A DNA stretch of 37,114 bases. Origin: Anaerolineae bacterium (GTDB lineage Bacteria > Chloroflexota > Anaerolineae > JAADDB01). The notes under the pieces are model-generated. The model searched no databases. It worked only from the letters and a program-made list of their open reading frames with translations, and was not told the DNA's origin. Both the position numbers and the translations under genes were made by a program. The stretch spans positions 1 to 37,114 of the forward strand of contig WFQU01000140.1 of NCBI GenBank assembly GCA_015486845.1, given 5' to 3'. Numbering within the stretch: the stretch's first letter is position 1; each line of letters begins with the position of its first letter. Of this stretch, positions 31,196 to 36,793 are shown in pieces.

Positions 31196-34100
31196 ATGAG
31201 AAATAGCAAACTATTCAGTATCGTGTCAGTTTTGCTCGTAGTGAGCATGGTCCTGGTCTCGTGCGGCCCCGCAACGACACCGACACAACAACCCACGACG
31301 CAACCAACCGCTGTGCCGCCAACAGCGACTGCTTTGCCGGCAACGGCGACCGCTGTGCCGGCAACACCCACCCAGGTGGCCGAACAACCTATTTACCTGT
31401 CCATTATCTGGCATCAGCACCAGCCGCTTTATTACAAAGACCCAAAAACCGGCATCTACAGTCGGCCCTGGGTGCGGATGCACGCAGTTAAAGATTACTA
31501 CGACATGGCCGCCACCGTGGCAAAATACCCAAAAGTCCACGTCACTTTCAATTTGACGCCATCCCTCATCCGTCAGTTAGACGACTTGGCTAACGGCGCC
31601 AAGGACAAATATTGGGTACTGGCGGAGAAACCGGCCAACCAGCTCACCGCAGAGGACAAACAGTTCATTCTGCGTCATTTCTTCGATGCCAACTGGGATC
31701 ATATCATCGGGCAGTTTCCACAGTATAAAGCGCTTTTGGATAAACGCGGGCATGACAGCACCGAAGCAACTATCAACAAAGCACTAAAAAGCTTCACCGT
31801 TCAGGATTATCGCGATCTGCAAGTGTGGTTCAATTTAGCGTGGATGGATCCGGATATCCTGGCACAGGAGCCGTTTAAATCCTTAACCAAGAAAGCACAT
31901 TTCACAGAAGCGGACAAAGCCCCTATCTTTGCCGAGCAATTGAAGCTCATCAAAGCAGTGATCCCGGAGCATAAGAAGCTCCAGGACGCCGGTCAGATCG
32001 AGGTCACCATGACCCCTTACACCCACCCGATCTTGCCGCTTCTCTACGACACGAATCTGGCGAAGATCGCCATGCCAGGTGTCAAGCTACCGCACCGGTT
32101 CTCTTATCCCAACGATGCCATCGCCCAGGTGCAGAAAGGGGTACAGATTTACAAGGATCACTTCAGCCGAGCGCCGCGAGGAATGTGGCCTGCGGAGGGT
32201 GCCGTCGCCCAGCAGATCGTCAAGATGGTAGCGGACGCCAAAATCCAGTGGATGGCCTCGGACGAAGAGGTGCTGGCTAAGTCCTTGGGTATGGACGGAT
32301 TCACCAGAAATAGCCAAGACACGGTCCAAGAAGCGGATAAGCTCTACCGACCGTACTATGCCGTGGATCAACGCAGCGGAGAGAAAGTGGCGGTAGTGTT
32401 CCGCGACCACTTGATCTCCGACAAAGTCGGTTTCACTTACTCCGGGATGCCCGGCGATGCCGCGGCGAAAGATTTCATCCGCCGGATTCACAACATCAAG
32501 GACGAGTTAAAACGGGAGGGAGCCACCGGCCCGCACCTGGTTACGGTCATCTTAGACGGCGAGAACGCCTGGGAGTACTATCAGAACGATGGTAAAGCTT
32601 TCCTCAATAATCTGTACAAATATCTCTCCAACGATTCTGAGATCAAGACTGTGACGCCTGCGGCGTACCTGAAAATGTTCCCTAACCAACCGAAACTGAA
32701 GAATCTGTGGGCCGGCTCCTGGATCAACCACGATTTCAGCACTTGGATCGGTGAACCGGAGGAGAACGAAGCGTGGAACCGGCTGGGAGATGCCCGTAAA
32801 GTGCTTTCTTATTACGACATGCTCCACCGGAAGCAGGCACCGAAGGACGTAATCGCCAAGGCAGAGAATCTAATTTACGCCGCCGAGGGTTCCGATTGGT
32901 TCTGGTGGTACGGTTCCGATCAGGATTCCGGCGATGATGCCGCATTCGACATGATGTTCCGCCAAACCCTCATTGACATGTACAAGACATTGAACGAGCC
33001 GGTACCGGAGAACCTCTACGTGCCCATCGTGTCGGCTAAGAGCCCCCCACCCCAACAGCCGCTTACCGGCAACATCACGCCGGTCATTGACGGCTTGGGC
33101 GAAGGGCCTGAGTGGTCGCGAGCAGCCGCTTACCGCCGTCAAGGTGGTGCTATGGCAGCCGGCCAAGTTCTAACGGCGTTCCTCATGGGTAATGACAAGA
33201 AGAATCTCTACCTACGGCTGGATTCTGCCCGCCCATGGCAGGAGATCACCGGTGGTGCGGCGGCTGTGTATATCAACGTGCCATCGGCGGAGAAAGCCGA
33301 TCCGTTCCCACGCTACGGCGACCTGATGGAGCCAAAAGTCACACTGGGGTTCGGCGCCGCTTACGAAGTGCTGGTTACATGGAAAGATAACAAGCCGCAA
33401 GCAGTCATCGCCCCAGCGCTGGGCGGGTCCAAATGGGGCCAGGGAACGCCAGTTAAGATCGGACTCGGCGGCAACACCATCGAACTGGCACTACCGTTTA
33501 CGGCGCTGGGCGATCTGGAGGCGGGCGACAAGTTAAAATTGCGGACAGCAGTATTTTCCGGCCAGCGGGTGGCGGACATGATGCCGGACGAAGGCCCAGC
33601 CACGCTGGTGATGCCGGAGGTAGGCACGGTTACGCCCATTATCACCGTGGAAGATCCTGTCGGCGACGACCACGGTCCTGGTACCTATAGTTACCCAACC
33701 GACGTCGTCTTCAAGAAGAGCGTCTTCGACCTGACTAAATTCAGTGCCGGCGAGGACAGCCACGGTAACTTAGTGTTCACATTTTTCATCCAGGGACCTA
33801 TCGAGAACGTTTGGAATTCGCCCAACGGACTTTCAGTGCAGGCACTGGACGTGTATATCGATGTAGATCACAAAGCTGGAAGCGGACGAAGGATGCTGCT
33901 ACCGGGACGGAACGCGGCACTTTCCGCCAAGGATGCCTGGGATTACGCTATCTGGGCGGAAGGATGGACGCCCGGTGTGTTCAAGGTAGATGCCAAGGGG
34001 AATCCACAGAAAACAGACATACCGTTGAAGGTTATAGTGAACGCTGCCACCCACAAAGTTACGCTGCGGGTGCCGAAGTCTGCTTTCGGCGCCGGCGATC

Positions 34101-34378
34101 CAGCCGGATTCGGCTATGCGGCTGTTGTTTTGAGCCAGGATGGTTTCCCGGCGCCCGGCGTCTGGCGGGTGCGGGATGTGGAGCAGTCCGCTCAGCAGTG
34201 GCGGTTCGGTGGCGCGCCAGCGGACAGTAACCATACCCGGATCATTGACCTGGCCTGGCCTAAAGGTGCATCGCCGTCACAGGAGGAAATCCTGAGCCAA
34301 TACAAACCGTCGCAGGAAAAGGATATGGACAAGCTCTCGCCGGACGACTTCGCTCAACTGCCTATGCTGAGGAAGTAA
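31196..34378 (+). CDS. Lipoprotein glycoside hydrolase family 57, amylopullulanase-like
   Basis: A 1060-aa exported enzyme. The signal peptide ends at LVSC (Cys23), so it is a lipoprotein. A Thr/Pro/Ala linker (27-62) leads to a GH57 barrel (about 65-480) that starts with YLSIIWHQHQPLYY. The catalytic nucleophile is Glu334 in MWPAEGAV, and the acid/base is Asp454 in VILDGENAWEYY, both intact. An SDWFWWYGSDQDSG helical region follows. The C-terminal 330 residues hold a beta-rich module and a glucodextranase C-terminal-like (DOMON-type) domain beginning ITVEDPVGDDHGPGTYSYP. Likely role: breakdown of alpha-glucans outside the cell. AAAGGAG lies 9 nt before ATG 31196. Own promoter; no transporter genes adjacent. 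Confidence 0.92.
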   Translation: MRNSKLFSIVSVLLVVSMVLVSCGPATTPTQQPTTQPTAVPPTATALPATATAVPATPTQVAEQPIYLSIIWHQHQPLYYKDPKTGIYSRPWVRMHAVKDYYDMAATVAKYPKVHVTFNLTPSLIRQLDDLANGAKDKYWVLAEKPANQLTAEDKQFILRHFFDANWDHIIGQFPQYKALLDKRGHDSTEATINKALKSFTVQDYRDLQVWFNLAWMDPDILAQEPFKSLTKKAHFTEADKAPIFAEQLKLIKAVIPEHKKLQDAGQIEVTMTPYTHPILPLLYDTNLAKIAMPGVKLPHRFSYPNDAIAQVQKGVQIYKDHFSRAPRGMWPAEGAVAQQIVKMVADAKIQWMASDEEVLAKSLGMDGFTRNSQDTVQEADKLYRPYYAVDQRSGEKVAVVFRDHLISDKVGFTYSGMPGDAAAKDFIRRIHNIKDELKREGATGPHLVTVILDGENAWEYYQNDGKAFLNNLYKYLSNDSEIKTVTPAAYLKMFPNQPKLKNLWAGSWINHDFSTWIGEPEENEAWNRLGDARKVLSYYDMLHRKQAPKDVIAKAENLIYAAEGSDWFWWYGSDQDSGDDAAFDMMFRQTLIDMYKTLNEPVPENLYVPIVSAKSPPPQQPLTGNITPVIDGLGEGPEWSRAAAYRRQGGAMAAGQVLTAFLMGNDKKNLYLRLDSARPWQEITGGAAAVYINVPSAEKADPFPRYGDLMEPKVTLGFGAAYEVLVTWKDNKPQAVIAPALGGSKWGQGTPVKIGLGGNTIELALPFTALGDLEAGDKLKLRTAVFSGQRVADMMPDEGPATLVMPEVGTVTPIITVEDPVGDDHGPGTYSYPTDVVFKKSVFDLTKFSAGEDSHGNLVFTFFIQGPIENVWNSPNGLSVQALDVYIDVDHKAGSGRRMLLPGRNAALSAKDAWDYAIWAEGWTPGVFKVDAKGNPQKTDIPLKVIVNAATHKVTLRVPKSAFGAGDPAGFGYAAVVLSQDGFPAPGVWRVRDVEQSAQQWRFGGAPADSNHTRIIDLAWPKGASPSQEEILSQYKPSQEKDMDKLSPDDFAQLPMLRK

Positions 34379-35038: not shown

Positions 35039-35070
35039 AAAAAATAGGATAACACAGGTTAGTGTTATCC
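35039..35070 (-). terminator. Rho-independent terminator of the isopentenyl phosphate kinase operon
   Basis: On the minus strand GGATAACAC/GTGTTATCC (arms 35062-35070 and 35047-35055) form a 9-bp stem with a 6-nt loop, followed by TATTTTTTG. It lies 26 nt after the kinase stop. Confidence 0.85.
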
Positions 35071-35095
35071 TTAAAACTGGCGTCTGTTTAACTTT

Positions 35096-35923
35096 TTAGC
35101 GTGTGCCGCCGATGCTCGTGCCAGGAACATTCTCGTCCAAAAGAGCGCTTTGCACCCGCCCAGGTACCAGCCCGCTGATAATTTTCACCATCACCTGCGG
35201 CAGGGCAGCAGAAAGCGCCACCATCTCAGCGACTTTAGCTTCCATGCCACCAGTGACATCCGTGCCGTAGGCGGCAGCAAATTGCGCCGCCCCACTAGCC
35301 AGCATGGCTGCGTCGATATGCCGGATCAACTGCGCGTCGGGGTCGAGATGGGGATCAGCCGTAAACACGCCCGCGACCTCGCCGGCTAAGATAATACGAG
35401 CCGGACGTAATTTCGGCGCTAAAAAGCGGAAAAGTTCTTCCGTCGAAACAATGGTGCCCCCACGCATGTCGTCTAACACTACATCGCCGAAGATCAACGG
35501 GGTCAAGCCGACAGCCAAAAGCTGGTCAACCGGTTTCCAGGCTAAATCCTGCAAAACGCCGTCGTGACAGCAGCCGGAAGATAACGGCGGCAAAGGCAGG
35601 GCGTCCACGCCGGCCGCCCAGAGTGCATTGGTCACTAAGCGGTTCAACGCCCTCGCTGCCCTCGCCGTGGCGGCAAAACCATGCCACCCGGCCGGGCCGG
35701 TCACGCCCTGTCGCACATGGTAGTGATCACCAACAGCATGCCCAAAAGAGCCGCTACCATGACCAATCAGTAATCGCAAGGCAGGACGACGACGACGGAC
35801 GACAGCGATTTCATGGGCCAACCGTTCTATCACGTCCGCGCGGGGCGTTTCCGGCTGCCCTTTCTCAGTGATGAGGGAGCCACCTAATTTTAAAAAGACG
35901 CACGTTGATTCAACGTCCATCAC
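35096..35923 (-). CDS. Isopentenyl phosphate kinase
   Basis: A 275-aa amino-acid-kinase-family enzyme that phosphorylates isopentenyl phosphate to isopentenyl diphosphate, the last step of archaeal-type mevalonate pathways. FLKLGGSLIT (Lys12) and LLIGHGSGSFGHAVGDHY, with the family-specific His62, identify IPK rather than glutamate 5-kinase or UMP kinase. PLIFGDVVLDDMRGGTIVSTEEL, IILAGEVAGVFTADP and YGTDVTGGMEAKVAEM complete the ATP and substrate site. ATG 35923 overlaps the stop of the DUF126 gene (ATGA), so the two are translated together. IPK is known in some Chloroflexota such as Roseiflexus. A strong terminator follows. Confidence 0.9.
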   Translation of the reverse strand: MMDVESTCVFLKLGGSLITEKGQPETPRADVIERLAHEIAVVRRRRPALRLLIGHGSGSFGHAVGDHYHVRQGVTGPAGWHGFAATARAARALNRLVTNALWAAGVDALPLPPLSSGCCHDGVLQDLAWKPVDQLLAVGLTPLIFGDVVLDDMRGGTIVSTEELFRFLAPKLRPARIILAGEVAGVFTADPHLDPDAQLIRHIDAAMLASGAAQFAAAYGTDVTGGMEAKVAEMVALSAALPQVMVKIISGLVPGRVQSALLDENVPGTSIGGTR

Positions 35924-36327
35924 TTGTCCGCTCCGGGACGATCCACGCGGAGCACAGCGCCATCCACCGTGACCCAGTCGCCATCCCGAATTTGGGCAAT
36001 GGCAACATGATCCAGCATAGGGATTTCGGCGATGATGGCACCTACGGCAACGATAGCCTCGCTCTCGACATTGATCATCGCTGCCGGGGCTACGCCATTA
36101 CGCGCTAAACGCAAAATTGTGTAAGAGCCCACTGTGCTTCCTTTGCCGTGAGGAAAGGCTAACATTTTGCCGGCCACGGATTGCCCTTGCAACGGGTGCC
36201 CCGGCTCGACGATGATTCCCGTTTCCGGGTCCACACCACCTAAAAAGCCGATGGGCGCCGGGGAGACCAGCGCCTTCCCCCGGGCATGCCCTGACTTGAT
36301 CACCCTGCCGTGCATGATCCATTCCAT
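35920..36327 (-). CDS. Aconitase X swivel/small subunit (DUF126), candidate phosphomevalonate dehydratase small subunit
   Basis: A 135-aa DUF126 (AcnX swivel) protein. GKALVSPAPIGFLGGVDPETG, GQSVAGKMLAFPHGKGSTVGSYT (active-site Ser in GKGSTVGS, residues 61-68), NVESEAIVAVGAIIAEIPML and the C-terminal GDWVTVDG match the family. In archaea this subunit pairs with the AcnX catalytic subunit to dehydrate mevalonate 5-phosphate to trans-anhydromevalonate 5-phosphate; other AcnX enzymes act on cis-3-hydroxyproline. Co-translation with isopentenyl phosphate kinase favours the mevalonate role. ATG 36327 is chosen for the AGGTGGAG site 6 nt upstream; a longer frame runs through the tRNA gene. No large subunit lies in the window. 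Confidence 0.85.
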   Translation of the reverse strand: MEWIMHGRVIKSGHARGKALVSPAPIGFLGGVDPETGIIVEPGHPLQGQSVAGKMLAFPHGKGSTVGSYTILRLARNGVAPAAMINVESEAIVAVGAIIAEIPMLDHVAIAQIRDGDWVTVDGAVLRVDRPGADK

Positions 36328-36501: not shown

Positions 36502-36528
36502 GAGAAAAAGCCACCAGCAACTGGTGGC
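36502..36528 (-). terminator. Rho-independent terminator of tRNA-Val
   Basis: On the minus strand GCCACCAG-TTG-CTGGTGGC (36528-36510) followed by TTTTTCTC is a textbook terminator, 8 nt after the tRNA. It separates the tRNA transcript from the DUF126 operon. Confidence 0.88.
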
Positions 36529-36535
36529 CTGCCTG

Positions 36536-36609
36536 TGGGCGAAACAGGACTCGAACCTGTGACCTCTTCCTTGTAAGGGAAGCGCTCTAACCAACTGAGC
36601 TATTCGCCC
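36536..36609 (-). tRNA. tRNA-Val (anticodon UAC)
   Basis: On the minus strand the cloverleaf is complete: acceptor GGGCGAA/TTCGCCC, D stem GCTC/GAGC with loop AGTTGGTTA, anticodon stem CTTCC/GGAAG with loop CTTACAA (anticodon TAC), variable loop AGGTC, and T stem ACAGG/CCTGT with TTCGAGT. The discriminator is A and CCA is not encoded. Confidence 0.97.
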
Positions 36610-36793
36610 GTAAAAATCATTATACGTGACGGGCATGCGCCTGTCAATTTGTCAATACTTCTTCATTACAGTCCCGGTTGGGACACACCAGGAACCTAAG
36701 TCATCATCTAACAATGGCTTTCCTGAAAAAAGTCTTCTTACCGCAGAGCTCGCGAAGAACGCAGAGAGAAATAATCTGCAACGGATCTCACAA

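Follow-up and report, generated by a model that had tools for sequence, protein, structure and literature searches.

In 2023 the archaeal anhydromevalonate pathway was still described as unique to archaea (PMC10040528). According to a 2026 review (PMC13001223), it was reported for Ca. Promineifilum breve, a member of the Chloroflexota, by Kanno et al. (2024, Appl Environ Microbiol 90:e0110624). That organism has in common with the genome analysed here the phylum and the route through phosphomevalonate dehydratase, a UbiD-type anhydromevalonate phosphate decarboxylase and isopentenyl phosphate kinase (IPK); its lineage is probably different, and in our genome the dehydratase subunits are encoded on separate contigs. 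For Ca. Promineifilum breve, both enzyme activities have reportedly been shown by the same authors. The archaeal pathway in Chloroflexota is not new in kind and our genome is a further example, not the first; the hypothesis put forward earlier for this DNA (the original prediction) was right, but its novelty is reduced, since the pathway was published for this phylum in 2024. As far as the literature consulted shows, the new elements are the class-wide count, the near-exclusive exchange of the middle steps, which also took place within one family, the two AcnX clades of the class and the split dehydratase.

The type IIb aconitases X (AcnX) of Thermococcus kodakarensis (7cnr, 7cns) and Aeropyrum pernix resemble the enzyme described here in their two subunits, three cluster cysteines and mevalonate 5-phosphate pocket; here, however, the host is bacterial, and the subunit genes are not in tandem, that of the small subunit having IPK as its partner. 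The AcnX cis-3-hydroxyproline dehydratases belong to the same superfamily and have the same fold, but differ in substrate residues, cluster cysteines and hydroxyproline gene context (PMC8184944). The haloarchaea-type route of Roseiflexus and Anaerolinea has the upper pathway and IPK in common with our genome, whereas a single ATP-using GHMP decarboxylase, without a match in our genome, replaces the dehydratase and UbiD.

The analysed window is a stretch of 37,114 nucleotides, contig C140 of an Anaerolineae assembly (G000; 3.28 Mb, 182 contigs, 97.9% complete). Its acnX-S/ipk pair (Table 1) very probably encodes one phosphomevalonate dehydratase subunit and the final kinase of the archaeal anhydromevalonate pathway, an assignment based on gene presence, family membership, active-site residues, the absent rival decarboxylase and conservation in relatives.

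Table 1 Features of the window around the acnX-S/ipk pair
Feature	Position	Strand	Remarks
AcnX small (swivel) subunit, type IIb aconitase X	35920..36327	minus	135 aa; ATG 36327, stop 35920
Isopentenyl phosphate kinase (IPK)	35096..35923	minus	275 aa (GTG start at 35923) or 274 aa (ATG start at 35920)
tRNA-Val(tac)	36535..36609	minus	directly upstream of acnX-S; likewise upstream in G003 and G036
Terminator-like hairpin and T run	36508..36530	minus	between tRNA-Val and acnX-S/ipk
Intrinsic-terminator-like hairpin and T run	35046..35071	minus	just 3' of IPK
Perfect sigma-70 consensus promoter	36619..36647	minus	TTGACA-17-TATAAT, 12/12; just upstream of tRNA-Val
Lipoprotein-like protein	31196..34378	plus	1060 aa; glycoside hydrolase family 57 and glucodextranase C-terminal module

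Both protein assignments of the original prediction, an AcnX swivel protein and an IPK, were confirmed by profile searches. The small subunit scored 114.9 bits against Pfam AcnX_swivel (PF01989; cut-off 27), was the only match of this profile in the genome and had 7cnr chain B (T. kodakarensis) as its top solved match (E 4e-35). Its NCBIfam label is merely 'DUF126 domain-containing', so annotation would miss the route. The kinase scored 166.7 bits with NF040647 'isopentenyl phosphate kinase' (cut-off 120) and matched the solved isopentenyl phosphate kinase 3ll9 with an E value of 3.1e-36, and its stretch HGSGSFGH lines up with solved IPKs. A Shine-Dalgarno-like sequence, AGGTGGAG, is located directly 5' of the small-subunit gene. 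The ATGA overlap proposed for the two genes has to be corrected: at the junction, AAGTGATGG, the small-subunit TGA (35922-35920) is shared either with the GTG start at 35923 (4 nt, GTGA) or with the ATG at 35920 (1 nt, TGATG). The AcnX large subunit is not adjacent to the pair in the window, and a tRNA with its terminator occupies the upstream position, as had been noted. With the terminators upstream and 3' of IPK, acnX-S/ipk is delimited as a two-gene unit without the large subunit. No sigma-70 site comparable to that upstream of tRNA-Val was found between the tRNA-Val terminator and acnX-S.

The searches suggested with the original prediction located all other genes of the pathway elsewhere in the genome. 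The AcnX large subunit, the single PF04412 match (453 bits), is encoded on contig C106, which agrees with the proposed genetic split of the two subunits. On C40, the gene of mevalonate kinase (245.8 bits with TIGR00549, cut-off 163) overlaps a UbiD gene, and thiolase, HMGS of the archaeal type (TIGR00748, 547 bits) and HMGR are encoded in a row on C101. UbiX was found at C114:32898-33440 (TIGR00421, 218.8 bits) without linkage to UbiD, and the type 2 IPP isomerase (IDI2) on C32 (408 bits). UbiX remained below the cut-off in the relatives G011, G021 and G056, which would need a more distant flavoprotein in its place. In the proposed pathway, acetyl-CoA would be converted via HMG-CoA to mevalonate by thiolase, HMGS and HMGR, and mevalonate kinase would form mevalonate 5-phosphate. 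The two-subunit [4Fe-4S] AcnX would dehydrate this compound to trans-anhydromevalonate 5-phosphate, the prenyl-FMN UbiD, with its cofactor supplied via UbiX, would yield isopentenyl phosphate, and the window IPK would produce IPP for isomerisation by IDI2. We infer that each of these reactions takes place and that the cell obtains its IPP in this way. A complete DXP pathway without mevalonate kinase, envisaged as a counter-indication, does not fit: mevalonate kinase is present and IspG was absent from all 28 class genomes searched, in a DXP test consisting of IspG and, indirectly through the GHMP search, IspE.

According to the haloarchaea-type (Roseiflexus-type) reading, a GHMP-family phosphomevalonate decarboxylase would make isopentenyl phosphate, IPK would complete the route and AcnX would be otherwise employed. 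IPK alone is not diagnostic, since it occurs in 28 of 28 genomes whichever route they carry, and a decarboxylase of this family is carried by the nearest relatives G001, G004 and G005 from the same family. However, no mevalonate (di)phosphate decarboxylase (TIGR01240) was detected in the window genome (97.9% complete) or in G003, and the GHMP proteins of the former comprise only mevalonate kinase and one galactokinase. Moreover, AcnX and archaeal-type UbiD are absent, with few exceptions, where the decarboxylase is present. This route is therefore improbable in our genome. The mixed route that had also been considered found no support, as no PMD/DMD-type decarboxylase was found, while the anhydromevalonate route agrees with the presence of AcnX-L, UbiD beside mevalonate kinase, UbiX, HMGR/HMGS and IDI2.

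The alternation of the two routes extends over the class. Type IIb AcnX alone was found in 11 of the 28 class genomes and the decarboxylase alone in 14; two genomes have both and one neither. The near-exclusive distribution gave a Fisher p of 5e-5, uncorrected for kinship among the 28 genomes. The genome with neither set (G002) is incomplete, and those with both are G018 and the doubtful G006. In G018 (L159, L279), the AcnX/UbiD set is accompanied by a mevalonate diphosphate decarboxylase homologue; this is possibly a dual or transitional genome. G006 was set aside as a hybrid of AcnX and decarboxylase lacking UbiD, because missing and foreign sequence explain its content equally well: its contig with mevalonate kinase and UbiX stops right past UbiX, its AcnX-S has a foreign-looking N-terminus and is encoded at the very end of a contig, and its decarboxylase is on a contig of 3.8 kb. 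Within the window's family, G000 and G003 carry the AcnX set and the three relatives named above the decarboxylase; in the IPK tree, both route types of this family group with G027 and G035 (support 86). Because IPK occurs in all 28 genomes and the two routes are intermingled in its tree, it was rejected as a route marker. These findings are most simply explained by inheritance of IPK and exchange of the middle steps. Small subunits in the type IIb range (at least 107 bits; other small subunits reach at most 98 bits) were found in 98 genomes, belonging to 34 families, of a class sample of 396. These data indicate that the anhydromevalonate route is common across the class and that close relatives may differ in having either this route or that through the decarboxylase.

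The UbiD encoded on C40 falls into a clade with archaeal AcnX-linked UbiDs (SH-aLRT 99); the genes of its clade-mates stand directly before AcnX in Methanolobus, Methanomethylovorans and Bathyarchaeota, and this group also includes the only UbiD from a Thermococcus genome. The protein keeps the R...E...E motif, whose arginine and glutamates we take to be the catalytic residues of the UbiD family. By homology, it is a putative anhydromevalonate phosphate decarboxylase, and UbiX from C114 is proposed as the source of its prenyl-FMN. Two other UbiDs of the genome were rejected for this role. The C76 protein is outside the C40 clade, and that on C129 was excluded both by the tree and by its match to menaquinone decarboxylase TIGR03701 (617.6 bits). 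The C76 UbiD (L149 1-2789) is outside both the archaeal and the menaquinone clades, and its gene adjoins genes for aldehyde:ferredoxin oxidoreductase and for an ABC transporter.

Among solved structures, the large subunit matched 7cnr chain A best (E 4.9e-94), and the cis-3-hydroxyproline dehydratases ranked lower. In an alignment evaluated with the residue list of PMC8184944, the cluster and substrate positions of TkAcnX were identical in 14 of 14 cases (11 of 11 for the non-cysteine ones). The cluster cysteines Tk Cys110, 283 and 342 are kept in L001 as positions 122, 315 and 372 of P0003. The bacterial AcnX of other types in this alignment differ mainly at the phosphate-pocket positions 47-53; the aligned Agrobacterium sequence is the S449C/C510V crystal mutant, whose cysteine in the Tk 283 column was introduced by engineering. 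With its FLGGVDP and GKGSTV motifs, the small subunit matches the substrate residues Leu27/Ser62/Thr63/Val64 of TkAcnX, where type I carries Trp/Thr (PMC8184944); it has Leu and Ser-Thr-Val where type I AcnX has Trp and Ser-x-Thr. The large and small subunits probably form a type IIb enzyme, a putative phosphomevalonate dehydratase by homology to characterised enzymes.

It is very improbable that this AcnX is of the cis-3-hydroxyproline dehydratase type. Both subunits do score on the NCBIfam model of that enzyme, far under its cut-off (303.5 and 87.8 vs 700 bits), but the large-subunit pocket, Ala-Gly-Val-Ser...Asn, is of the mevalonate-phosphate type as opposed to Asp-Gly-Cys-Ile, and the three-cysteine cluster set is that of type IIb. 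At the places compared with hydroxyproline-type AcnX, the proteins have Ala, Ser, Leu and Val. The tree also speaks against this reading: the large subunit lies in a type IIb clade of 52 rows together with archaeal proteins and apart from the six rows of other-type AcnX (SH-aLRT 99). No hydroxyproline genes were recognised beside either subunit. A large subunit in a hydroxyproline locus would have counted against the original prediction; its gene was found instead between those of methylmalonyl-CoA mutase and a peroxiredoxin-like protein. A second AcnX type with other pocket residues is common in the class, e.g. L181 (G031), L015 (G021) and L021 (G024), and also in families f27, f35 and f45.

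Because each is the sole copy in the genome, the separated subunits are regarded as partners, and we infer that they assemble into one enzyme of the phosphomevalonate dehydratase type. In five relatives outside the split subclade (G018, G021, G032, G047 and G056) the genes form one operon, UbiD-L-S-IPK, and AcnX-S adjoins IPK in 11 of the 13 type IIb genomes compared. The split subclade comprises G000, G003, G027, G035, G022, G036 and G057 (support 99 in the AcnX-L tree). Each of its genomes in which both subunits were located encodes them on separate contigs; the split therefore seems to be old and not an assembly accident of one genome. G003, from the same family, repeats all three arrangements, i.e. 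tRNA-Val, AcnX-S and IPK; mevalonate kinase and UbiD; and AcnX-L and methylmalonyl-CoA mutase, with identities to the window genome of 79% (L), 72% (UbiD) and 59% (IPK). A binning artefact, in which contigs of archaeal origin would have been added to a bacterial assembly, might be suspected from the fragmented genome and the archaeal-type pathway but is largely refuted, and hardly credible, given the similar G+C content (53-58%) of all contigs concerned, the bacterial genes on the same contigs and the repetition of the arrangements in the independent genome G003. In the split subclade, three genomes have methylmalonyl-CoA mutase following the orphan large subunit (L002 12941-14626; L154 2964-4643; L163 8717-10399). 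In related families, selA (selenocysteine synthase) precedes acnX-S and IPK (L026 5319-6698; L284 5259-6665), and tRNA-Val takes its place in the window's family and G036.

Two groups of Anaerolineae were found in the AcnX-L tree, which is a quick tree with long branches elsewhere. The group of the window (support 97) includes a KSB1 bacterium. The second also contains the Chloroflexi MAG SI074 and has Bathyarchaeota as its sister lineage (support 99). The KSB1 genome (L040, L096), which is outside Chloroflexota, has AcnX L-S-IPK and UbiD of the same clade. The two Anaerolineae groups are less sharply apart in the UbiD tree than in the AcnX-L tree. The AcnX-L tree suggests that AcnX may have entered from archaea more than once. 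We consider it rather likely that the middle steps of the mevalonate pathway form a module that can be exchanged in the Anaerolineae: archaeal dehydratase/decarboxylase genes would have entered at least twice, they and phosphomevalonate decarboxylase would have replaced each other even among members of one family, IPK would have stayed, and the operon of the window subclade would then have broken into the S/IPK pair and a distant L.

The anhydromevalonate route achieves decarboxylation without ATP but requires an oxygen-sensitive iron-sulfur enzyme. The pairs of close relatives with different routes are natural material for asking why a lineage prefers this one.
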